Assembly (NCBI RefSeq): GCF_041435215.1
Contig: NZ_CP108394.1
Coordinates: forward strand, 7,068,001 to 7,132,000
DNA length: 64,000 nucleotides
Direction of reading: 5' to 3'
Origin: Streptomyces sp. NBC_01314
GTDB lineage: Bacteria; Actinomycetota; Actinomycetes; Streptomycetales; Streptomycetaceae
This document shows, in pieces, positions 42,119 through 56,658 of the stretch. Each line of letters starts with the position of its first letter. Positions within the stretch are counted from its first letter, which is position 1. The translations under genes were made by a program, and so were the position numbers. A model generated the notes under the pieces. That model was not told where the DNA came from, did not search any database, and was given only the letters and a program-made list of their open reading frames with translations.

Positions 42119-42289
42119 GGAGCGGCTTGGAGAATTGCGATTCCGGTGAGGCGGAGAGGTAGGCTTGAAACTGGTCGCACGGGAGTGTTCTTGGTCACAC
42201 TCGAATTACCTCCGTGCGGCCACTTTTCTGCCCTGACCATGGCATGGCGTGCGAGTAATAGTCAGGCGAGGCGACGAGTGCCACGGCCC

Positions 42290-42295
42290 TAGAAT
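42290..42295 (+). promoter_or_regulatory. -10 element of valS (leaderless)
   Basis: TAGAAT ends seven bases before GTG 42303, so the transcript would begin at or next to the start codon. No clear -35 is visible. Confidence 0.55.
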
Positions 42296-42302
42296 GGCCG
42301 TC

Positions 42303-44933
42303 GTGACCGACAACACTCAGCGCCCCGACAGTGGGCCGAACAGCGCCCCCGAACTGCCGACCCAGTACACGCCGGCCGAGGTAGAGGGAACGCTGTACGA
42401 GCGCTGGGTAGAGCGCGGTTACTTCGAGGCTGATGCGAAGAGCGACAAACCCGCGTACACCATCGTCATCCCGCCGCCGAACGTCACCGGCTCCCTCCAC
42501 CTGGGCCACGCCTTCGAGCACACGCTGATCGACGCCCTCACCCGCCGCAAGCGCATGCAGGGCTACGAGACGCTGTGGCAGCCGGGCATGGACCACGCCG
42601 GCATCGCGACACAGAACGTCGTCGAGCGGGAGCTCGCCAAGGAAGGCAAGTCCCGCCACGACCTGGGCCGCGAGGCGTTCGTCGAGCGAGTCTGGCAGTG
42701 GAAGGCCGAGTCCGGCGGGCAGATCGCCGGCCAGATGCGGCGCCTGGGCAACGGCGTCGCATGGAGCCGCGACCGCTTCACCATGGACGAGGGCCTGTCC
42801 CGTGCCGTCCAGACCGTCTTCAAGAAGATGTACGACGACGGCCTGATCTACCGCGCCGAGCGCATCATCAACTGGTGCCCGCGCTGCCTGACGGCCATCT
42901 CGGACATCGAGGTCGACTACCAGGACGACGACGGTGAGCTCGTCTCACTGAAGTACGGCGAGGGGGACGACACGGTCGTCGTCGCCACCACGCGTGCGGA
43001 GACCATGCTCGGTGACACCGCCGTCGCCGTTCACCCGGACGACGAGCGATACAAGCATCTCGTCGGTCGGCGCATCGTGCTGCCGCTGACGGGCCGCACG
43101 ATTCCCGTCGTCGCCGACACGCACGTCGACCCGGAGTTCGGCACCGGTGCCGTCAAGGTCACGCCCGCCCACGACCCCAACGACTTCGCCATCGGCCAGC
43201 GCCACGGCCTGGAGTCGCTGACCGTCATGGACGAGCGCGGCGTCATCACCGTCCACGGCCCCTTCGAGGGCCTGGACCGCTTCGAGGCGCGTTCCGCGAT
43301 CGTCGCCGCGCTGCGCGCCGACGGCCGGATCGTCGCCGAGAAGCGGCCGTACGTCCACTCGGTCGGCCACTGCTCCCGCTGCAAGACAACCCTTGAGCCG
43401 CGGCTGTCTCTGCAGTGGTGGGTGAAGGTCGAGACGCTCGCCAAGGCCGCGGGTGACGCGGTCCGCGACGGCCGGGTGGACATCCACCCCGCCGACCTGT
43501 CGCAGCGGTACTTCGACTGGGTCGACAACCTCAACGACTGGTGCATCTCACGGCAGTTGTGGTGGGGCCACCGGATCCCCGTCTGGCACGGTCCGAACGG
43601 CGAGACCGTGTGCGTCGGCCCCGACGAGCAGCCGCCGACCGGCGAGGGCTGGGAGCAGGACACCGACGTCCTCGACACCTGGTTCTCCTCCGGCCTGTGG
43701 CCCTTCTCCACGCTGGGCTGGCCCGAGAAGACCGCGGACCTGGCCAAGTTCTATCCGAACTCGGCCATGGTCACCGGGTACGACCTGATGTTCTTCTGGG
43801 TCGCCCGGATGATGATGTTCGGCCTGTACGCGATGGACGGTGAGGTTCCCTTCCACACCATCGCGTTCCACGGCATGGTCCGTGACGAGCACGGCAAGAA
43901 GATGTCGAAGTCGTTCGGTAACACGGTCAATCCGCTGGACTGGATGGACAAGTACGGCTCCGACGCTCTGCGGTTCACGCTCGCCCGGGGCGCCAACCCC
44001 GGTACCGACGTGCCGATCGGCGAGGACTGGGTCCAGGCGTCCCGGAACTTCGCCAACAAGGTCTGGAACGCGACGCGGTTCGCGCTGATGAACGGCGCCA
44101 CGGTCGAGGGTGAGCTGCCCCCGGCCGAGCAGCTCTCGGCCACGGACCGTTGGATCCTGTCCCGGCTGAACACCGTGGTGGCCGAGGCGGACGCGTACTA
44201 CGACGACTACCAGTTCGCGAAGCTCGCCGATGCCCTGTACCACTTCGCGTGGGACGAGGTTTTCGACTGGTACGTCGAGCTGTCCAAGACGACGTTCATG
44301 ACCGGCGGCGACGCGGCCAAGGTCTCGGCTCGCGTCCTGGGCGAGGTCCTGGACGTGACGCTGCGACTGCTGCATCCCATCGTTCCGTTCGTGACGGAGA
44401 CGCTGTGGACCACGCTCACCGGCCGCGAGTCCATCGTGATCGCCGACTGGCCGACGGACAGGGGGTTCCGCGATGCCGCCGCCGAGGCGGAGATCGAGAG
44501 CCTCCAACAGGTGATCACCGAGGTTCGGCGCTTCCGGTCGGACCAGGGGCTGCAGCCTGGTCAGAAGGTCCCGGCCCGCCTGGACCTGTCGGGTACGCAG
44601 CTCGCAGCCCACGAGGCCGCCATCCGTCAGCTGCTGCGACTGCAGCCGGAGGGTGACGGCTTCAGCGCCACGGCGACGCTCCCGGTCGCCGGCGCCACGG
44701 TCGCGCTCGACCTGTCCGGCACGATCGACGTCGCGGCCGAGCGCAAGCGGCTGGCCAAGGACCTTGCCGCGGCCGAGAAGGAGAAAGCTCAGGCGGAGGC
44801 AAAGCTCGGCAACGAGGCGTTCCTGGCGAAGGCCCCGGACAACGTGGTCGAGAAGATCCGTACCCGCCTGACGAAGGCCGAAGGGGACATCGTCCGGCTG
44901 CAGAATCAGATCAGCAACCTGCCGCCGGTGTAG
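42303..44933 (+). CDS. valS: valyl-tRNA synthetase
   Basis: Class I synthetase of 876 residues that charges tRNA-Val. It has HLGH in [17 protein letters not shown], the KMSKS signature in [15 protein letters not shown], and the [10 protein letters not shown] tryptophan motif. Editing-domain segments include [15 protein letters not shown]. The C-terminal coiled coil ([20 protein letters not shown]) is present. GTG 42303 ([11 protein letters not shown]) is preferred: a -10 element ends seven bases before it, while ATG 42294 lies inside the promoter. The usual Streptomyces valS neighbour folC is absent. The setting here is MFS/MerR, a decayed XRE gene and a truncated glycosyltransferase, so it may be a second copy. 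Confidence 0.93.
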
Positions 44934-47341: not shown

Positions 47342-47995
47342 ATGGACTGCACGATCTGCATGCCAAGGAAGCCCTGGGATCTTCAGTTCCTGGCGGAGCC
47401 CGAGGAAGTTGCAGCTCTACGGCGTGTGCTGAGGGTTCACTTGGGGCTCTGGGGCCTCGACGATCTCATCGACGCAGCTCAGCTCTGCGTCAGCGAGCTC
47501 GTTTCCAACGTGATCACTCACGTCGGTCCTGGTACTCCCACCACCCTCGCGGTTTCCATGGAGAGCACCCGCTTGCGGATCGAGGTCCATGACCCCGATA
47601 CTCGCGCTCTGCCCATGCTCCTGAGTCAAGGCGTCAACTCCGAAAACGGAAGGGGAATGGAGCTCATTGCCCTCATCGCTGACCGGTGGGGCGTCCAGCT
47701 CTTCGCCGATCGCAAGGTGACGTGGTGCGAGCTCCCTACCGCCTTGATCTCGCCCGACGGGCATCGCGGGGGGCCCCACGTTACGAGAGCGGAGGAGGTG
47801 CTCTGCCTCTACACCGCGGCAGAGCCGCCGCCCGCAGCTGGGTCCGGTCGGCTGCGTGCAGCTACGGGAGAGGAAGCAGCGATCGGTGCTATTGCTGATC
47901 TTCTCCACTGGCTCCGGGCGCATGGCAGGGATGCTGATGACGCATTGGACCGAGCCCAGATGCGCTTTGCAGCGGAAGTGGGGGTGGTGGGCTGA
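47342..47995 (+). CDS. ATP-binding anti-sigma-like protein (HATPase_c)
   Basis: The 217-residue protein has a GHKL ATPase core: an N box in LCVSELVSNVITHVG (E and N), a G1 box PDTRALP, and G2-like ENGRGMELIALIADRW. These motifs define RsbW/SpoIIAB-type serine kinases, which bind sigma factors and anti-anti-sigma partners. A Cys-rich N-terminus (MDCTICMPRKPW) and an extra C-terminal helical tail of about 60 residues are unusual. It is the divergent third member of the XRE/DUF397 cluster. Confidence 0.88.
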   Translation: MDCTICMPRKPWDLQFLAEPEEVAALRRVLRVHLGLWGLDDLIDAAQLCVSELVSNVITHVGPGTPTTLAVSMESTRLRIEVHDPDTRALPMLLSQGVNSENGRGMELIALIADRWGVQLFADRKVTWCELPTALISPDGHRGGPHVTRAEEVLCLYTAAEPPPAAGSGRLRAATGEEAAIGAIADLLHWLRAHGRDADDALDRAQMRFAAEVGVVG

Positions 47996-48009
47996 CTCGA
48001 CCTGTGGCG

Positions 48010-51000
48010 CTACCCGGCTTTGATCGTCGAGTACGTCCACACGTCCGCTGGCATCTCGTGCTTCAGCTTCCACGTGATCGCCATCGGTTTGCTTCCGGTG
48101 TGCTTCTCGTACTCAGCCGGGCCGAGGAGTATCCACGGCTGGGCGCCGCCCATGTCGGTGCTCTTGTAGCGGCGCACGAAGAGCAGGACGTGGCTGCCCT
48201 CAGCGACATGATGCTGATAGCGCAGGCCAGTGGGGGAAGCCACGGAAGTCTGATTCTGGGACTCCCAGTGGAAGAGAGTCTCGCTCTGTGCGTAGTCGTG
48301 GTACCTGGTCTGCGGCGAGAAGTCCTTCTCGTCTTTCTCCAGCGTGATGAGGAGCGCGTCCGTCTTGATCGAGTCGCACCACTTCACGCCCTCGCGGAAG
48401 TCGGCCGGCATGAAGCCGCCGATGTACGACTGCCCCAACGCAGGCAGGATCTCTTCGCGGCTGTACGAGGCATGCACGGTGAGGGGGACGCCTCCCTGAC
48501 CACCCAAGCCCAAGAGAGGGATTGGTACGTGCTCGGTGTGGGCGAGGTTGTACTCCAGTACCTGGCGCAGCTCACTGCGGACCGCGTGCTGTTTTTGCAG
48601 GGCTGCAAACCCGGCGTCGTAGTTGGCGTACCCCTTGCGGACGATGCCGCCGAGTGGCCACAACTGGAAGAAGAGCATACGAGCATAGGCCTGCCCCTGC
48701 TCGTCCAGGGCGGTGTAGGCGGGGGCATCGTCTTCCAACATTCGCGTGTACGCGGCGACCCGTAGCGGGTCGTCCACGTGGAGGAACGCGGAGATGCGCT
48801 TGAGCAGTGCGGCCTCGCCTTCCGGAGCCTCACCCTTCAGGAGGCCGGAGCGGCGGAGTAGACCCGTCCAAGCGTTTCCGTTGCCCCGGTACAGCTCCTT
48901 GAGCTCGCGCCCGCTCTCGTCGAGGTAGCGGCTGAGTTTCAGCTCGGCGTAGTCCGCCACCTCGCGCGCCAGTGCTGTGACGTTGACGCCGATCTGGTCC
49001 TTGATGTTGGCGATGATGGTCTTCTTGGCCTTCTCCTCAAGGATGATCTGGCAGCCGGACGGGAGCTGCGGGAAGTCGTGCTCGATGTTGTCCAAGAGCC
49101 GCTTGCGGGTCAGGTTCGTCAGGGCGCGGAACTGGTTCTCGAAGCGGAATTCCTTGCGGTGCTGGCCGATGAAGTCCAACACGGTCAGCACCGCCTTGTT
49201 TTCGGTACGCCGGAGACCTCGGCCGAGCTGCTGCAAGAACACCGTGACGCTGGAGGTGGGGCGTAGCAAGAGCAGAGTGTCTACGTCGGGGATGTCCAGG
49301 CCCTCGTTGAAGAGGTCGACCGAGAAGATCACCTGCAACGCCCCGGAGGTGAGGTCAGCCAGGGCCTGCTTGCGCTCCTCGGCAGAGGTCCCGGCAGACA
49401 GGGCAACGGCGTTGAGGCCAGCCTTGCGGAAGGACTCCGCCATGAAGTGCGCATGCGCAACAGAGACGCAGAAGCCCAAGGCGCGCATGGCACTTGGATC
49501 GGCGACTTTCTCCTCAACGGCCTTCAAGACCAGCAACGCCCGCGCGCGGTTGGCGGACAACACATCGCTCAGCGCGCTTGCGTCGTACGCCCCGCGATGC
49601 CACTTCACCGCACTCAGGTCGGTGTTGTCGCTGATGCCGAGGTAGTGAAAGGGGCTAAGTAGGTCGTTCTCCAAGGCCTCCCACAACCGCATCTCGGCAG
49701 CGATGCGCCCATCGAAGAACTCGTCCTGGATGTTCTTGCCGTCCATGCGCTCGGGAGTCGCAGTCAGTCCAAGCAGCTCCAGCGGCTCGAAGTGATCGAG
49801 GATCTTCCGGTACGTCGGCGAAGTCCCGTGGTGGAACTCGTCGATCACGATCACGTCGAAGTGATCAGCAGCGAGCTGGTCCAAGGTGCGCGCGTTCAGT
49901 GACTGCACGCTGGCGAAAACATGCGTCCAGCGCTCCGGAATCTCCCCGCTGTGCAGGGATTCGCCGAAGTTCGCGTCGACCAAGACGTCTTGGTAGGTCC
50001 GTAGGGACTGCTGGAGAATCTCCTTGCGATGAGCGACGAACAGCAGCCGCAGGTCACGGCCGTGCTTCTTGCGTAGCTGCTTGTAGTCCAGTGCTGCCAT
50101 CACGGTCTTGCCGGTACCTGTCGCCGCGACCAGCAGATTCTGGTGCCGGTCATGCACTTTGCGCTCGACTTCGAGGCGCTCCAACATGTCGCGTTGATGG
50201 GCGTAGGGTCGTACTTCGAGACCGGACAGGGTGATCCTGCGATCCGAGGCTGAGGTGTTCGAGGTGCCCCCGGCGATCGCCAATGCTTCCTGGAGTCGAG
50301 CGCCGTCGGTGTCCGGGTCGTACAGCTCGAAGGACGGGTCGCTCCAGTACGCCTCGAAGGTTGCGTCGAACTTTCGCAATACGTCGGGTGTGGCGATGGA
50401 CGACAGCCGGACGTTCCACTCCAACCCGTCGAGCAGCGCGGCCTTGGAGAGGTTGGAGCTGCCGACGTACGCAGTGTCGTAACCGCTCTTTCGCCTGAAC
50501 AGCCAAGCCTTGGCGTGGAGGCGAGTTGACCTCGTCTCGTAGTTGACCCTGACTTCCGCGTTGAACTCCCGCACCAGCCGATCCAGTGCGCGCCGCTCGG
50601 TGGCACCGATGTACGTCGTCGTGATGACACGTACGGGCACGGCCCGTTCGCGGGCTGCCTTCAAGGACTGCTCGATGATGCGCAGACCGTGCCACTTCAC
50701 GAACGCGCAGAGCAGGTCGACGCGATCAGCAGTGGCGAGCTCTGCACGCAACTCGAAGCCCAGGCTGGGGTCTTCCGGTGCGTTGGTGATGAGTGCGGTG
50801 TCGGAGAGTGGGATACCGGGTCGGACAGCGAAGACACCGGGGGCCTCCTGTCGGGTCAGCGCCAGGAGTTGACGAGGTCCGTCCGCCACCAACTCCACCC
50901 ACTCCTGTGCTCCCTTCAGCGTGCTGATGGACTCCAGGATGTGGTTCACCGCGTAGACCCGCTCCTCGGCAGGGAGGCCTTGCAGTACGCGACGTACTGT

Positions 51001-51171
51001 CCGGGCGATGTGCCTTGCTAGGACGTGGGGTACGGATTCGGCTCCCACCGTGTCGCTCACCGGATGCCATCCGAGGTTTGCGAACTCCTTCAGCGTCTGC
51101 TCGAAGCGCACGGTGATGAGCTGCTCGTACGCCCCCACGGCCGGCTGCGCGAGATCCCCCGACTCAGACAC
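48010..51171 (-). CDS. PLD-nuclease/SF2 helicase/DUF3427 protein
   Basis: The 1053-residue protein combines three parts. A phospholipase-D-type nuclease domain (about 120-290) has STRLHAKAWLFRRKSGYDTA and YVGSSNLSKAAL. An SF2 helicase core has Walker A AATGTGKTVMA (about 352), DEFHHG box II (about 442), a SAT-like LGLTATPER and motif VI QQLGRGLRR (about 652). A C-terminal DUF3427 region follows. Such proteins occur in nucleic-acid-targeting defence loci, but the activity is inferred from family. The ATPase and nuclease residues look intact. It is the largest gene of the accessory island and divergent from a nuclease gene. Confidence 0.9.
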   Translation of the reverse strand: MSESGDLAQPAVGAYEQLITVRFEQTLKEFANLGWHPVSDTVGAESVPHVLARHIARTVRRVLQGLPAEERVYAVNHILESISTLKGAQEWVELVADGPRQLLALTRQEAPGVFAVRPGIPLSDTALITNAPEDPSLGFELRAELATADRVDLLCAFVKWHGLRIIEQSLKAARERAVPVRVITTTYIGATERRALDRLVREFNAEVRVNYETRSTRLHAKAWLFRRKSGYDTAYVGSSNLSKAALLDGLEWNVRLSSIATPDVLRKFDATFEAYWSDPSFELYDPDTDGARLQEALAIAGGTSNTSASDRRITLSGLEVRPYAHQRDMLERLEVERKVHDRHQNLLVAATGTGKTVMAALDYKQLRKKHGRDLRLLFVAHRKEILQQSLRTYQDVLVDANFGESLHSGEIPERWTHVFASVQSLNARTLDQLAADHFDVIVIDEFHHGTSPTYRKILDHFEPLELLGLTATPERMDGKNIQDEFFDGRIAAEMRLWEALENDLLSPFHYLGISDNTDLSAVKWHRGAYDASALSDVLSANRARALLVLKAVEEKVADPSAMRALGFCVSVAHAHFMAESFRKAGLNAVALSAGTSAEERKQALADLTSGALQVIFSVDLFNEGLDIPDVDTLLLLRPTSSVTVFLQQLGRGLRRTENKAVLTVLDFIGQHRKEFRFENQFRALTNLTRKRLLDNIEHDFPQLPSGCQIILEEKAKKTIIANIKDQIGVNVTALAREVADYAELKLSRYLDESGRELKELYRGNGNAWTGLLRRSGLLKGEAPEGEAALLKRISAFLHVDDPLRVAAYTRMLEDDAPAYTALDEQGQAYARMLFFQLWPLGGIVRKGYANYDAGFAALQKQHAVRSELRQVLEYNLAHTEHVPIPLLGLGGQGGVPLTVHASYSREEILPALGQSYIGGFMPADFREGVKWCDSIKTDALLITLEKDEKDFSPQTRYHDYAQSETLFHWESQNQTSVASPTGLRYQHHVAEGSHVLLFVRRYKSTDMGGAQPWILLGPAEYEKHTGSKPMAITWKLKHEMPADVWTYSTIKAG

Positions 51172-51319
51172 TCTGACTCCCTTGAACGCTCAGCAGTTGT
51201 GCCCATGTGTAACAGAGGGCGCTGACAGTGCGCAGAGGATGGCCGACTGCTGGATGGGGGAGAGGGCCGAGTTGCCTTCCGTAGCTGCAGTGGCCGGTGT
51301 ACCTGCCTAGAATTATTTC

Positions 51320-52165
51320 ATGCCTCAAGAGAAACTTGGAAGCATCCTCAGCTCAGTTGCCATGCGGATGCGCGCAGACTTCGAGCAGTCCAGGAACTTC
51401 AGTCACAACGGAGAAGCGGGAACTTCCCGAGAAGCTCTTGTTCGTGAGTTTCTCGCCAGCTATCTGCCATCCCATGTGGAAACGATACATAACGCCGAGA
51501 TTGTCACTGCTTCAGGGGAGACCTCTCCTCAGTGCGACATCGTTCTCGCGGATCGAGGTACCCCACCCTTCACTACTCTGAACGGGTATCGAATCCTCCC
51601 AAATGAGTGCGTTTATGGCGTTGTCGAAGTGAAGACCAAACTGGACAAGGATCAACTCGTAGACGCGTGTAACAAGATCAGCAAGCTGCGGAGTATGTCG
51701 AAGAATTCATATCGCCCGACGCCTGGCCTTATCTCGCGGAAAACGTCGGCCTACGGGAAAACTTACGACTTCTTCCCAACCTCTGGGATCATCATCGCCT
51801 TTAGTAGTCTCAAATTGGAGACCATTGGTAGTCACCTCATGGAATGGTGTCAAACCCGGCCGCCAGTCGAATGGCCTGATAGTGTCTGGGTGCTGGGCAA
51901 GGGGCAACTTCAGTGGCAGAACCCCGTTGATCATCTGCTCGAACGCTCACCCGGGCCGGGGTCACTGCTCGCGCAAATCGATACGGATGCATCTCAGGAT
52001 ATTTTACTGGCTCTCGCGCTGCACTTAAATATTCACTTCTCTGATGCGTGGATGAATCCGCTGGACCTTGTGCCGTATGCGGGAGCCACTCGCCTCGGCG
52101 TTATTTCGCGTCGCTGGCGCATGACTCCCGCGGGTAGGCCCCTTAAGATGTTGGAAGGCCCGTGA
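51320..52165 (+). CDS. DUF6602-like PD-(D/E)XK nuclease candidate
   Basis: The 281-residue protein starts MPQEKLGSILSSVAMRMRAD. The core has REALVREFLASYLPSHVETI, SPQCDIVLADRG (D73) and CVYGVVEVKTKLDKDQL with E103 and K105. The D-x(n)-E-x-K spacing and the EVKTKLD strand are the signature of restriction-like nucleases. I recognise the layout as the DUF6602 family. It is divergent from the helicase gene by 148 bases and convergent with the SRA gene by 19 bases. Codon use is unlike core genes (more A/T in third positions), so it is acquired. A defence role is inferred. Confidence 0.78.
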   Translation: MPQEKLGSILSSVAMRMRADFEQSRNFSHNGEAGTSREALVREFLASYLPSHVETIHNAEIVTASGETSPQCDIVLADRGTPPFTTLNGYRILPNECVYGVVEVKTKLDKDQLVDACNKISKLRSMSKNSYRPTPGLISRKTSAYGKTYDFFPTSGIIIAFSSLKLETIGSHLMEWCQTRPPVEWPDSVWVLGKGQLQWQNPVDHLLERSPGPGSLLAQIDTDASQDILLALALHLNIHFSDAWMNPLDLVPYAGATRLGVISRRWRMTPAGRPLKMLEGP

Positions 52166-52184
52166 GGGAGAAGGCGCCAATGGG

Positions 52185-53300
52185 CTAATCGGCGGGTAAT
52201 GATTCCCCGATGAAGCTACCATTTTCTGTTCTGTATACTATTTCCACTCCGTGCGATTTACACAGGTCGAACATGTCCAGGTCGGGCGCTGCTGGGAGAA
52301 GGATGACGCGCTTGGGCGGCTCGGGGTGATCCTTGGTCCGCACGTAACGGCTGTAGTCCAGAATCTGTCCCAGGGCCATTCTTACTTCCTCACGTGCGCT
52401 AGAACCTTTGGCTTCGTAGAGCACATGTTCCGTCGCGTCATAGAGATCTGTCTTTAGGGTGGACGTGAGGCCTTTGACTTTTATCTGGAAGGCGCCGGTT
52501 TTATGTCCGACAGATTTCAGATAGGCCATGTAGGTGCGAGTCAGTTCGGCTTCACGGCGAACGGCGATGTGGGCAGCGGCGGACGAGCGGAGACTCATCT
52601 TCTTATTGAAAGCCTCTGACACGACAAATGTGCCACTGGTGGCAGAATTCTCGGCAGCCTTTCGTGGAGGGCTCGCTTTTTTCTTTCGCTGCTTGGAAGT
52701 TAGCATTTCCCCGGTAGTCGCGGGATCACGATGGAGGGTGGCCGCGGTCACTATCTCGAAGGGGACAAGTTCCCAGGTGGTATCTGTCGCGGCTGGGATC
52801 AGGTTCTTTGATGAGCGCTGAAAGTCCCCATCTGGCCGAAGGCAAAAAACGATTACGTTGCGTTCCTTGCCGTCCTCGCCGTGTACTCTGCGCCACACGT
52901 AAGGTTCCAGTGTGTCCAGAGTGAATTCCCCGAGGTACTGATGAGTCTTGGTTCCACTATTGGGAACTAAGCCGACCTGTGTGAAAACTCGTAGCGTTCG
53001 ATTCTGTTCAGCGTGACGTAAGATGGCTCGGTTGCCTGAGCCCGCGATCCCGGCGAATGTCTGGTTGCCGGACTTCCCAGCCCCGGTGTACTCGAAAGTG
53101 GGCCCCAGTTCGTCTTCCTCGACCAGCCAGCCATCGTAGTATCCGTTGACCTCTCCGACAGCGGGGTCCGAATAGAGGTTGACACTCTGCTTTTCAACGG
53201 AGGGGCATATGCCGCCTTGTCCGCTTCCTCCGAATGCCTGCCTGATCTCTGCCCGCGTGCGCACATCTCCGGGAACGATCGCGCTAGCCTTGGTCGTCAT
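52185..53300 (-). CDS. SRA-domain plus PD-(D/E)XK restriction-like enzyme
   Basis: The 371-residue protein has an N-terminal ScoMcrA-like SRA domain: SVNLYSDPAVGEVNGYYDGW, FEYTGAGKSGNQTFAGIAGS, GNRAILRHAEQNRTLRVF and YLGEFTLDTLEPYVWRR. SRA domains bind DNA carrying modified bases. The C-terminal domain has LKTDLYDATEHVLYEAKGS (D285, E296, K298) and MALGQILDYSRYV, a PD-(D/E)XK nuclease. The combination matches modification-dependent (type IV-like) restriction enzymes. A basic linker (KQRKKKASPPRK) joins the domains. Codon use is A/T-richer than the core. It ends 19 bases from the DUF6602 gene. Confidence 0.85.
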   Translation of the reverse strand: MTTKASAIVPGDVRTRAEIRQAFGGSGQGGICPSVEKQSVNLYSDPAVGEVNGYYDGWLVEEDELGPTFEYTGAGKSGNQTFAGIAGSGNRAILRHAEQNRTLRVFTQVGLVPNSGTKTHQYLGEFTLDTLEPYVWRRVHGEDGKERNVIVFCLRPDGDFQRSSKNLIPAATDTTWELVPFEIVTAATLHRDPATTGEMLTSKQRKKKASPPRKAAENSATSGTFVVSEAFNKKMSLRSSAAAHIAVRREAELTRTYMAYLKSVGHKTGAFQIKVKGLTSTLKTDLYDATEHVLYEAKGSSAREEVRMALGQILDYSRYVRTKDHPEPPKRVILLPAAPDLDMFDLCKSHGVEIVYRTENGSFIGESLPAD

Positions 53301-53551
53301 GTCATGACCCTAACAACTGTCAATTCGGTGACATGAGTGGGTGGCGGTGATGAGCGAGCCCGTGAGCTAGGGAAGGCTCGTCGATGTCGGCGTGTGGCTC
53401 CGAGCTCACCCGCAGGTGTCGGGAGCCCTTTGTCGTTGCCCGACTAGGCCCGAGCGGCTGTCGCGTTGGCCTTCACCAGTGGGAGCCCTGCGGACGGCAG
53501 GCCCTGTTCCAGCGGCCGATTTGGCTCGAAGCTGACACGCTCCTCCGGGCT
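53301..53551. other. spacer before the IS element
   Basis: The 251 bases between the SRA gene and the left inverted repeat show no supported gene or clear repeat. Frames have weak codon bias. Confidence 0.5.
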
Positions 53552-53571
53552 CCCTAAGAGTTGTCCCGTAA
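53552..53571 (+). repeat. IS left inverted repeat
   Basis: CCCTAAGAGTTGTCCCGTAA; pairs with the right repeat with three mismatches. Confidence 0.88.
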
Positions 53572-53607
53572 CTGCTGGTCACAGTTAGCCGTTGGCGCCG
53601 GCCGACG

Positions 53608-53991
53608 TCAGCCGAAGAGGAGGTCGACGTCCTTCTCGATGCAGAGCTGCAGGACGACCACGAACTGGCGGGCGTCGTCGAGGTGGCGTTGGAGGAGCGG
53701 GTCGATGCTTCCCTCTTGCGGCTGGTCGGCGATCTCTCGCAGGCGGGGCAGGATCGCGGCGCACTGGATCGGTGTCAGGTCGGGGCCGTCGTCGTCGGGA
53801 TGATTGAGGAGTGGTGCCAGGGTGGTGAAGACGTCGTTCCAGGGGCGCTGTCCACCGAAGCCGCCCATCTCGTTTAGTTCGAACCCCTCGGCCTGCGCCA
53901 GCCACCGCCGGAACACTCCGAAGCCGGTGTGGGACCAGGACACATCCGGGCTGCTGGTGTCGTCGTCTCCTGGGAACAGAACGAGCCCCAC
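53608..53991 (-). CDS. hypothetical protein carried inside the IS element
   Basis: The 127-residue acidic protein starts MGLVLFPGDDDTSSPDVSWS and includes HTGFGVFRRWLAQAEGFELN, PWNDVFTTLAPLLNHPDDDG and LQRHLDDARQFVVVLQLCIE. It has no transmembrane or catalytic motif that I recognise. Codon bias supports a real gene. It lies within the IS but on the opposite strand from the transposase and is not normally part of this IS type. It may be a passenger gene or a later insertion. Confidence 0.72.
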   Translation of the reverse strand: MGLVLFPGDDDTSSPDVSWSHTGFGVFRRWLAQAEGFELNEMGGFGGQRPWNDVFTTLAPLLNHPDDDGPDLTPIQCAAILPRLREIADQPQEGSIDPLLQRHLDDARQFVVVLQLCIEKDVDLLFG

Positions 53992-54063
53992 GTGTCCTCC
54001 TCGTTGACCGAGCCCACAGGATCGGCCTGAGGAACGGGCGACGGCAACTGAAATGATCTCGCC

Positions 54064-54833
54064 GTGGCTGGTGTGATCACGGCGTCGGAGCCGTCCTGGA
54101 AAGCCCGTTCACCGGGTTGAGCCCGCGTCAGTTCAACAAGCAGATCAGCGCGTTGCGTTGTGAGGGTGCGGATCCGGTGCGCAAGGGCAGGCCGTGGAGC
54201 CTGCCCCTGGAGGATCGGGTTCTGCTGGTCGCCGCGTACTGGCGCACCAACCTCACACTGCGCCAACTCGCACCACTGTTCGGGGTGTCGAAGTCCGCGG
54301 CCGATCGCATGGTCGACGACCTCGGCCCGGCGCTTGCGCTCCAGCCACGCAAGCGGTTCCGCCGGGACACCGTGCTGATCGTGGACGGCACCCTGGTGCC
54401 CACACGCGACCACACCGTCGCCGAGCAGTCGAAGAATTGCCGGTACTCCACCAACCATCAAGTCGTCATCGACGCCGACACACGACTCGTCGTCGCTGTC
54501 GGCTGGCCACTGCCGGGCAACCGCAACGACTGCAAGGCATGGGAGTTGTCCGGCGCAAAGGAGGCCGTCGGTAAGACCACGGTCATCGCGGACGGCGGCT
54601 GCCGGGGCACCGGCCTGGTCATCCCTCACCGCCGCGAGAAGGGCCAGACCGAACTCCCGGCCTGGAAGGAGGAACACAACACCTCCCATCGCAAGGTCCG
54701 CGCCCGCGTCGAGCACACCTTCGCCCGGATGAAGACCTGGAAGATCCTCCGCGACTGCCGTCTCAAGGGCGACGGCGTCCATTACGCCATGCTCGGCATC
54801 GCCCGCCTCCACAACCTCACCCTGGCCGGCTGA
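54064..54833 (+). pseudogene. IS5-family transposase, frameshifted
   Basis: The DDE transposase is mostly readable from 54117 to 54833: LPLEDRVLLVAAYWRTNLTL, VLIVDGTLVPTRDHT (first D), TTVIADGGCRGTGLVI (second D) and RARVEHTFARMKTWK (E). The normal N-terminus VAGVITASEPSW is present at 54064 but in another frame; a missing base near 54101-54107 shifts it. Canonical family members read through this point as one frame. An internal TTG at 54117 could start a shortened protein, but loss of the DNA-binding start would be expected to inactivate it. Confidence 0.78.
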
Positions 54834-54871
54834 CGAAGAACAGGCTGGTCAACGAACACATCGTCGATCAT

Positions 54872-54891
54872 TTGCGGGACAGCGCTTAGGG
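54872..54891 (-). repeat. IS right inverted repeat
   Basis: TTGCGGGACAGCGCTTAGGG, the reverse complement of which matches the left repeat at 17 of 20 positions. Confidence 0.88.
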
Positions 54892-54898
54892 CGCGCTA

Positions 54899-55165
54899 GG
54901 GCGTGTCTCTTTGGTGGGCTGGTCAGTTGATCAGACGTGTCCATCCGGTTAGTGATCACTGATGCGATGTGGGGCCAGATCAAGCCGCTGATGCCGGCCA
55001 ATCCGGTCCGCGGTCGGCGGTGGGCCGACCGCCGCCGCACCCTTGAAGCCATCGCGTGGAAGTACCGCACCTGTTCGCCGTGGCGGGACCTGCCGGACGA
55101 GCTCGGTTCCTTCTAGACGGCACACAAAGGCCTGATCAGGTGTGCCGTCGACGGCACCTGGCGGC
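54899..55165 (+). pseudogene. 5' fragment of a second IS5-type transposase
   Basis: Directly after the first IS, a frame from GTG 54937 reads VITDAMWGQIKPLMPANPVR, GRRWADRRRTLEAIAWKYRT and SPWRDLPDELGSF, the N-terminus of an IS112-like transposase. A TAG at 55114-55116 interrupts it where glutamine is expected. The frame then continues TAHKGLIRCAVDGTW before the similarity ends. The left IS end starts near GGCGTGTCTCTTTGG. It is a dead fragment, possibly the older target of the first IS. Confidence 0.78.
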
Positions 55166-55196
55166 CATCCTCACCTGATCCCGCTCGACGCGGTGA

Positions 55197-55502
55197 TCAG
55201 AGCAGCTCGTGCACGACCAGTCGCGACTGCTTCCCCGAAAAGGCACTTCGCAGGGCGCGGGCCTCACGGTTCCGGGCAGCGAAGACTCCTTGCTTGTCCA
55301 CGTGCACGACCAGGACGTCGTAGCTGTCGATGGCCTCGGAGATGCCTCGTGTCTGGATGGTGTCCCGCCAGGCTTCCGTGTTCCGGCCGAACCACCCCGG
55401 CAGTCCGCAAGGCTCAGTTACGGCGTCCCAGAAGTCGTCGAGCGTCTCGATCGGCCTACCCCGCAGGTCAACCACCAGTTCCGACTCAATCCTTTTGGTC
55501 AT
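55197..55502 (-). CDS. barstar-like ribonuclease inhibitor
   Basis: The protein of about 101 residues has the barstar fold signature: LVVDLRGRPIETLDDFWDAV and GLPGWFGRNTEAWRDTIQTR, where the second segment is the barnase-contact region. ATG 55502 starts MTKRIESELVVDL; an upstream in-frame ATG at 55526 would add eight residues. Barstar family proteins inhibit barnase-type ribonucleases, usually encoded next door. None is encoded here, so it may be an orphan immunity protein or act on a distant toxin. Its neighbours are IS remnants. Confidence 0.85.
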   Translation of the reverse strand: MTKRIESELVVDLRGRPIETLDDFWDAVTEPCGLPGWFGRNTEAWRDTIQTRGISEAIDSYDVLVVHVDKQGVFAARNREARALRSAFSGKQSRLVVHELL

Positions 55503-55632
55503 CAGGACAGAGTAATCAACCCTCATCTAAGGCGGCGGCGCTCTTTGTGCACGAGGGAGTAGTCCCTCGTGGTGCCGAGCCGGGTTGCTGAGAGGGGCGC
55601 CCCGGGTGGGTTGCCCCGCACCAGCCTGTTGA

Positions 55633-56658
55633 TCACCCCTCGCTACCGTGGCACTCCCCATAAACCCGCCCCGACCCACACCAACAAGCGCGCCCCCGCT
55701 GCGGCGGCCACTCCACAGCCAACCCCCGCGCAGCCAACGTCGTCGCGTACTGCGGCAGCAGTGTCGCGTCGGCCGGGGAGGAGCCCTCCGAGGCGGCGAA
55801 GGCCTCGTAGGACGGGACCGTGCCCGTGACGATGCCCAGGTTCGGGGTGCCTGAGGAGGAGAGCTCTCGTAGCGAGGACTCTATGGTCGCCAAGTGCTCC
55901 TCGTGGGACGGGTATTCGGTGGAGAGGCCCGGGTACGCCGTTACCAGTTCGCTCAGTTCGTTCGCCGGCCAGTGGAGGACCGCTACCGGGAAGGGGCGGG
56001 ACAGGGCCTCGCGGTAGGCGCCCAACTCTGCCCGTAGGCGGGAGATTTCGGCCTGGAGTTCCGCCGGGTTGTCCGAGCCCAGGGACCACACGCGCTTCGG
56101 GTCGTGCAGCTCGTCCAGGGAGACCGAGGAGGAGTGCTGGGTGTCCGCCACGGCGTCCCACTCGTCGTGGACCGAGCCGAGCATGCGGCGGACGCGGTGG
56201 CGGCCGAAGAGGAGGGCGCGGGTGGCGTACGGGGGTTCCGGGACGTCTGTCAGGAGGAGGGTCACGGCTGCCGTGAAGGTGTCCTGGGCCGCTTCCAGCT
56301 CGTCGTGGGACTCCAGGGCCTCGGCGACGATCACCCAGGGGGCCGGGTCACGCGGGGCCGCGGCGCGGACTCCGTCGATGATCGCGCGGGCCTCCGCCTC
56401 GTGGCCGTACTCCCAGAGGTTGGCGGCTTTCAGCGCTCGTACGAGGTGGGGGTTGTCGAGAGGGACGGACGACGACAGTAGGCGGTCGTAGAGGGCCGTC
56501 GCGGTGGGGCGGTCGCCGGAGAGTTCCCGGTGGGCCGCGGCCTGCAGGAGCAGGTGCTCGGCGTCCTCCGGGTAGAGGTCGGCGGTCCGCTCCAGGCGTG
56601 CCGCTTCGGCGTTGTGGTCGACGTTCTCGGCAGGCGTGTCGGGGCGCATGGACGACAC
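55633..56658 (-). CDS. SEC-C motif protein with TPR-like region
   Basis: The 341-residue protein ends CWCGSGRVYGECHGSEG, the zinc-binding SEC-C motif (CxCGSGx5-6CH) found at the end of SecA and many other proteins. The first 150 residues are helical repeats of TPR type: AARLERTADLYPEDAEHLLL, AHRELSGDRPTATALYDRL and GHEAEARAIIDGVRAAAPRD. The middle has a helix LRAELGAYREAL. The function is unknown. Codon bias is good. Confidence 0.87.
   Translation of the reverse strand: MSSMRPDTPAENVDHNAEAARLERTADLYPEDAEHLLLQAAAHRELSGDRPTATALYDRLLSSSVPLDNPHLVRALKAANLWEYGHEAEARAIIDGVRAAAPRDPAPWVIVAEALESHDELEAAQDTFTAAVTLLLTDVPEPPYATRALLFGRHRVRRMLGSVHDEWDAVADTQHSSSVSLDELHDPKRVWSLGSDNPAELQAEISRLRAELGAYREALSRPFPVAVLHWPANELSELVTAYPGLSTEYPSHEEHLATIESSLRELSSSGTPNLGIVTGTVPSYEAFAASEGSSPADATLLPQYATTLAARGLAVEWPPQRGRACWCGSGRVYGECHGSEG

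Follow-up and report, generated by a model that had tools for sequence, protein, structure and literature searches.

Analysis of a 64,000-nucleotide stretch of Streptomyces sp. NBC_01314 (contig NZ_CP108394.1, positions 7,068,001 to 7,132,000; here called the window) revealed three adjacent genes, designated P1, P2 and P3. They encode a SauUSI-like protein, a DUF6602 protein with a NucC fold and a protein that combines an SRA domain with a PD-(D/E)XK nuclease domain, respectively (Table 1). The original prediction for this region had described a packaged neighbourhood of three genes with restriction- or defence-like products. The three genes are real and had been read and located correctly, and the restriction- or defence-like nature of each protein was borne out. 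We consider it fairly probable that the genes form a type IV restriction locus, directed against modified DNA and composed of two separable modules, P1 and a mobile P2-P3 pair.

Table 1. Features of the locus, with positions in the window (or in a related locus where an L number is given).
Feature	Position	Strand	Description
P1	48010..51171	-	1053 amino acids; SauUSI-like type IV restriction enzyme; PLD nuclease 166-276, SF2 ATPase ~320-660, C-terminal DUF3427 848-1047
P2	51320..52165	+	281 amino acids; DUF6602, NucC-fold PD-(D/E)XK nuclease
P3	52185..53300	-	371 amino acids; SRA ~5-165, PD-(D/E)XK nuclease domain ~245-365
Gap between convergent P2 and P3	52166..52184		19 bases
Stretch upstream of P1	51172..51227		Kept in three relatives (L086, L090, L093) with a differing neighbour
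Left flank of P1	46093..47995		DUF397 gene, XRE-DUF5753 regulator (cluster c2), HATPase_c_2 gene (cluster c5); recurs in relatives
Insert-like stretch	53383..55645		IS5-family transposase open reading frame 54117-54833; barstar-like open reading frame 55197-55526
Right flank	55633..56658	-	Cluster c3; recurs in relatives
Two families without Pfam or PADLOC match at the P1 locus	L094:11382-12359; L095:9852-10496		325 and 214 amino acids

The P1 protein contains the Pfam-type domains PLDc_2, ResIII, Helicase_C and DUF3427. It matched the PADLOC model mREase_IV with 1493 bits over residues 102-1049, and its best sequence match in the PDB was 7clg (E value of 5e-74), an entry named SauUSI. SauUSI is described in its study as a translocating enzyme that shreds methylated DNA and whose C-terminal domain adopts an SRA fold (PMC7913695). 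DUF3427 was predicted earlier to bind modified DNA in a survey that names a Streptomyces protein (PMC7159879), and several tested S. coelicolor enzymes are listed in a further paper (PMC3874153). Because of the domains, the mREase_IV and 7clg matches and the SauUSI literature, P1 was assigned to the SauUSI-like type IV enzymes, and its DUF3427 domain corresponds to the SRA-fold reader of SauUSI. P1 shares with the type IV enzyme SauUSI from Staphylococcus aureus a PLD nuclease, an SF2 ATPase and a C-terminal DUF3427/SRA domain in the same order. It differs from SauUSI in length (1053 versus 953 amino acids), with residues 1-101 lying outside the PADLOC match, and in its genomic slot, which accepts further readers.

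Single-sequence searches with P3 against Pfam, PADLOC and the PDB yielded no usable match; a plant kinase chain that matched with an E value of 0.23 was rejected as chance. A profile of the P3 family reached the SRA domain of ScoMcrA at an E value of 0.001. The identity of P3 became clear from its fold, which revealed an N-terminal SRA domain and a C-terminal PD-(D/E)XK domain, the latter with the motif D285, E296-x-K298 and Q312. MspJI and AspBHI have the same domain order. The active site of MspJI is PD-QxK according to a review (PMC12707154), whereas P3 has D...E-x-K and, unlike MspJI, has a NucC-fold protein as its partner. Whole-chain superposition of P3 and AspBHI was poor (TM score of 0.28, rmsd of 18.7), and therefore only the domain order is common to both. 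The SRA-HNH enzymes ScoMcrA and TagI differ from P3 by having an HNH nuclease instead of PD-(D/E)XK, and no match for the sulfur-binding domain of ScoMcrA was found in P3.

The P2 protein resembles NucC, an effector of CBASS (cyclic-oligonucleotide-based antiphage signalling systems) and of type III CRISPR systems, in its fold and in its D / E-x-K motif. The P2 motif residues D73 and E103-V-K105 are present and were kept in all 28 P2 alignment rows covering them. Sequence alignments revealed that NucC R53 and Y81, which we take to be two residues that contact cyclic tri-adenylate (cA3), correspond to H52 and T81 in P2, with H and T at these positions in 27 of 28 P2 rows each. P2 also differs from NucC in having an SRA nuclease as its partner, and no cyclase (CD-NTase) or type III CRISPR gene was present among the nine window open reading frames scanned, the genome not having been searched for a cyclase. 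These differences, together with the convergence of P2 and P3 in all testable close relatives, argue against P2 being an ordinary cyclic-nucleotide-activated NucC effector that lies beside P3 by chance, which we regard as very unlikely. More distant P2 relatives have varied neighbours, including a protease, an ABC ATPase, methyltransferases and plasmid genes, and no single common partner was seen among the neighbours of these distant DUF6602 proteins.

To characterize the modules, homologues were drawn from genome, plasmid and phage collections, in which families outside the Streptomycetaceae are thinly sampled. A scan of named genomes with the P2 family gave 24 loci. Seven contained the full trio (in L120, only P1 residues 1-735 were matched) and ten contained a convergent P2-P3 pair without P1. 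At L133, the contig stops before any P3 would be visible; the six other loci have a distant P2 (44-56% identity) with no P3 match, and one of these, L137, ends soon after P2. P2 and P3 were convergent in all 17 named loci in which both ends were visible (P2 at least 66% identical), which upheld the view that these two genes are packaged together. After duplicates were merged, 21 full-length P2-P3 pairs were obtained, 8 with P1 adjoining (including the window) and 13 without; among the latter, the sequence upstream of P2 in L131 is limited to 406 bases. Because 13 of the 21 pairs occur without P1, P2-P3 is the conserved unit. The pairwise identities of P2 and P3 correlate across the 21 pairs (r of 0.87), and the P3 motif residues were kept in 21 of 22 rows, the catalytic lysine being lost in L131. 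A neighbour scan of ten pair loci, covering 53 of 72 proteins, identified RepSA (pSAM2-type replication initiator) twice, an integrase twice and GntR regulators four times, which suggests that the pairs are carried on integrative elements. Literature searches, for which subscription journals and preprints lay mostly outside the scope, returned no paper on DUF6602, on NucC with an SRA domain, or on a NucC homolog with restriction-modification and SRA, so that absence from the literature is weakly indicated. The P2-P3 pair is apparently undescribed.

The association of P1 with the pair was analyzed in 295 genomes of the genus, in which P1 was counted at an E value of ≤1e-100. P1 was present in 89, a P3-like gene in 63 and a P2-like gene in 15 genomes. 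The three genes might be thought to encode one dedicated defence complex, as the order and orientation of the trio are identical in 8 genomes (L120 with its partial P1 match among them) and P1 and P2 start divergently. The full trio was found in only 4 of the 89 P1 genomes and is missing from the other 85. In addition, a single clade of trio P1 genes was rejected in a quick tree (p-AU of 6.5e-5), and close relatives of P1 carry SRA-HNH or MrcB_N genes in the slot that holds P2-P3 here. With the 13 pairs that lack an adjoining P1, these results make a three-gene complex highly improbable. The genes do not occur together as a rule, and the original prediction of a syntenic set acting as one system was not supported; much of the counterevidence it had named, such as rare adjacency, was found. 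The packaged neighbourhood itself is not arbitrary, since other modified-base readers recur beside P1.

Comparison of the window with related genomes revealed P1 flanked by the same genes in many relatives. Homology to relatives with other partners stops at 51130-51246 (at 51227 in L086, L090 and L093, and at 51130-51147 or 51246 in the others) and resumes near 55646 in several of them. In relatives, the interval between these boundaries is occupied by an SRA-HNH gene, an MrcB_N gene, a P3-like gene or other content. Readers of three families (SAD_SRA, MrcB_N and P3-like) were searched in 80 of the 89 P1 genomes, nine assemblies having been left out. Within 1 kb of P1, a SAD_SRA gene was found in 8 genomes (15 such genes overall; HNH was confirmed in the one scanned) and an MrcB_N gene in 7 (9 overall), and a P3-like gene lay within 4 kb of P1 in 15. 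A modified-base-reader gene of these three types was therefore located beside P1 in 30 of the 80 genomes, and the remaining 50 loci are unclassified. According to our scoring on a 53-gene P1 tree, the partner was exchanged no fewer than 14 times. These results show that P1 sits at a recurring chromosomal site and that the adjacent slot is often refilled with modified-base readers.

Inspection of the P3-like proteins revealed a difference between sites. The nuclease motif is degenerate in all 17 P3-like genes that lie downstream of P1 at up to 2.6 kb and point in its direction; the SRA motif GYxDGW...YTGxG was kept in all 16 of them in which it was read. Among the other P3-like genes with a known locus, pair-type P3 being set aside, the nuclease motif was intact in 21 of 25. 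The exceptions are G469, G425, G446 and G348, and P1 adjacency was not visible for the last three. P3 of the window has an intact motif and is not of the downstream kind. The two families without database match listed in Table 1 recur beside the nuclease-dead P3-like genes at the P1 locus.

P3-like proteins were also observed in other contexts. Genes with intact motifs lie between phage portal and minor capsid genes in L106:7840-8847, where domains were scanned, and in L108:7738-8751, where the context was read from gene clusters. A P3-like gene is present in two records of one Gordonia phage. In Gordonia phage Sidious, gene 63 (L261:2486-3382) is of this type, and the two genes after it carry methyltransferase annotations. 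Fusions of a P3-like or SRA domain were found with a C5 methyltransferase (L181:5090-7210), with an N-terminal region of approximately 570 amino acids without Pfam match (L180:4997-7690) and with a KAP NTPase (L183:6903-9299).

In the proposed type IV locus, the C-terminal SRA-fold domain of P1 would recognize 5-methyl- or 5-hydroxymethylcytosine, its ATPase would translocate on DNA in an ATP-dependent manner, and its PLD domain would cut the DNA. The SRA domain of P3 would flip out a modified cytosine, and P3 would cut through its own PD-(D/E)XK site. P2 would probably be licensed by P3 or by P3-marked DNA rather than by cA3, and cutting by P2 may make the break irreparable. The base read by P1 and P3, the catalytic steps, the joint action of P2 and P3 and the exclusion of cA3 as P2 ligand are predictions.

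The distribution of methyltransferases agrees in part with such a function. C5 methyltransferases (PF00145) and, as a control, N6/N4 methyltransferases (N6_N4_Mtase, PF01555) were counted at an E value of 1e-15 and compared by Fisher tests, which ignore relatedness. A C5 methyltransferase was rarer in genomes with P1 (21/89 versus 171/206 without; p of 1.6e-22) and in genomes with a P3-like gene (19/63 versus 173/232 in the others; p of 1.9e-10). In P1-free genomes, it was present in 13 of 30 with a P3-like gene versus 158 of 176 without (p of 5e-8). The N6/N4 control was flat for P1 (36/89 versus 87/206; p of 0.80) and for P3-like genes (28/63 versus 95/232; p of 0.67). The scarcity of C5 methyltransferases in P1 genomes, with a flat control, fits restriction directed against 5-methylcytosine (5mC). 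In the window genome, neither PF00145 nor PF01555 gave a hit at 1e-15. When mapped on a 42-genome valS tree, each of the two traits showed 15 or more changes, and therefore the exclusion pattern is not the history of one clade.

Several observations weigh against the reading of a two-module type IV locus, the neglect of relatedness in the Fisher tests being the first. When independent pairs were compared in the 42 genomes, in which exceptions were over-sampled by design, the means were 5.0 versus 2.2 in the expected direction, which was not significant (median p of 0.45); with P1-or-P3-like as the trait, the means were 4.8 versus 0.9 (median p of 0.22). The PF00145 search at 1e-15 missed C5 enzymes that were found otherwise in G079 and G038. 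In P1-free genomes, the N6/N4 control was not flat but somewhat more frequent with a P3-like gene (18/30 versus 69/176; p of 0.045), a shift opposite to that of the C5 enzymes, and PF00145 was present in two (G263 and G192) of the six intact-pair genomes among the 295. P2 and P3 are convergent and therefore share no common transcript, so that their co-expression is putative. Two further points concern the site beside P1. According to the SRA-domain tree, the nuclease motif of P3-like proteins was lost approximately twice, each time together with a place downstream of P1; the 17 of 17 losses thus represent about two independent events and are suggestive, not strong. The slot was searched for reader genes only, and other cargo in 50 of the 80 loci would escape.

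The last two points also speak for a mere insertion hotspot for defence genes, in which P1 and its neighbours are functionally unlinked, as does the recurring site, whose cargo varies and whose boundaries are sharp near 51227 and 55646. This explanation has a minor but appreciable chance of being correct. It is opposed by the concentration of readers at P1, where 8 of the 15 SAD_SRA genes and 7 of the 9 MrcB_N genes lie within 1 kb, and by the pattern in the downstream P3-like genes, which lost the nuclease motif but kept the reader motif, whereas most of those elsewhere are intact.

The remaining points against the two-module locus arise from C5 methyltransferases linked to the pair. Among the 14 pair loci without P1, four have such a gene close to P2, directly divergent in L128, L129 and L133 and with one open reading frame between in L083; among these four, the pair is broken in L083 and P3 is unseen in L133. 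G368 encodes a fusion of a P3-like protein with the same C5 methyltransferase. This linkage is adverse because an enzyme that cuts at 5mC would not be expected beside an active enzyme that produces 5mC. It would be explained if P2-P3 were the restriction half of a restriction-modification (R-M) system in which the C5 methyltransferase protects the host and the P3 SRA domain reads self methylation to withhold cleavage, the window carrying a remnant without methyltransferase. Vsr, found in 2 of the 53 neighbouring proteins (one placed in L133), points the same way, as does a distant P2 relative (46%) in Kibdelosporangium (L139), which is convergent with an N6/N4 methyltransferase gene. The latter locus (L139:8970-12102) has the P2 relative between two N6/N4 methyltransferase genes in an R-M-like arrangement. 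A precedent for a modification-directed machine with a C5 methyltransferase is PcaRCI, in which a McrBC-like nuclease joined to a Dcm-like methyltransferase forms an R-M system (PMC8989522). P2-P3 differs from PcaRCI in its nuclease family, and no methyltransferase is located beside the pair in the window, so that a cognate methyltransferase encoded with the nuclease, as in type II R-M systems, is lacking there.

Further evidence speaks against the R-M origin. The 10 other pair loci of the 14 and the 8 trio loci had no C5 methyltransferase gene within the retrieved flanks. Six of the eight trio genomes had no relative of the linked C5 methyltransferase at an E value of 1e-6 (one of the six, G263, has a different C5 methyltransferase), and none was found in the window genome at this threshold. 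The nuclease motifs of P2 and P3 are intact in the trios; a classical restriction enzyme in this state would kill a host that lacks protection. In L128, the frame of the methyltransferase is interrupted and P2-P3 is full length; in L083, the broken part is P2-P3, not the methyltransferase. We therefore consider an R-M remnant rather unlikely and retain the two-module type IV locus. At the C5-linked loci, either P3 reads a base that is not made by the linked enzyme, or the pair became the cutting half of an R-M system.

Outside the three genes, the insert-like stretch that contains the insertion sequence (IS) is probably a later insert because S. neyagawaensis (L124), also a trio locus, has approximately 90 bp there. 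Promoter and terminator scans of 47950-53600 yielded no more than shuffled sequences. The valyl-tRNA synthetase gene at 42249-44933 of the window is one of two copies in the genome; the second is located at G000:C1:7462409 and shows 82% protein identity.

The individual parts of the locus are of known kinds. The novelty lies in the combination of a NucC-fold protein with an SRA nuclease and in the nuclease-dead readers next to enzymes of the SauUSI type. As a tentative generalization, P2-P3 may represent a NucC-family nuclease rewired from second-messenger to modified-DNA sensing through an obligate SRA-nuclease partner; separately, Streptomyces SauUSI-like enzymes may gain target range from interchangeable readers, including nuclease-dead SRA proteins, that occupy one slot. 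In Streptomyces, type IV restriction is known to keep out methylated DNA, and its enzymes are mostly treated one at a time. The locus suggests that such an enzyme can serve as a core machine to which different readers are fitted, some of them stripped down to recognition alone; in P2, it also provides a NucC-fold nuclease for which no second messenger is evident. These two ideas are directly testable, and knowledge of the barrier genes would make it easier to introduce DNA into strains in which new antibiotics are sought.

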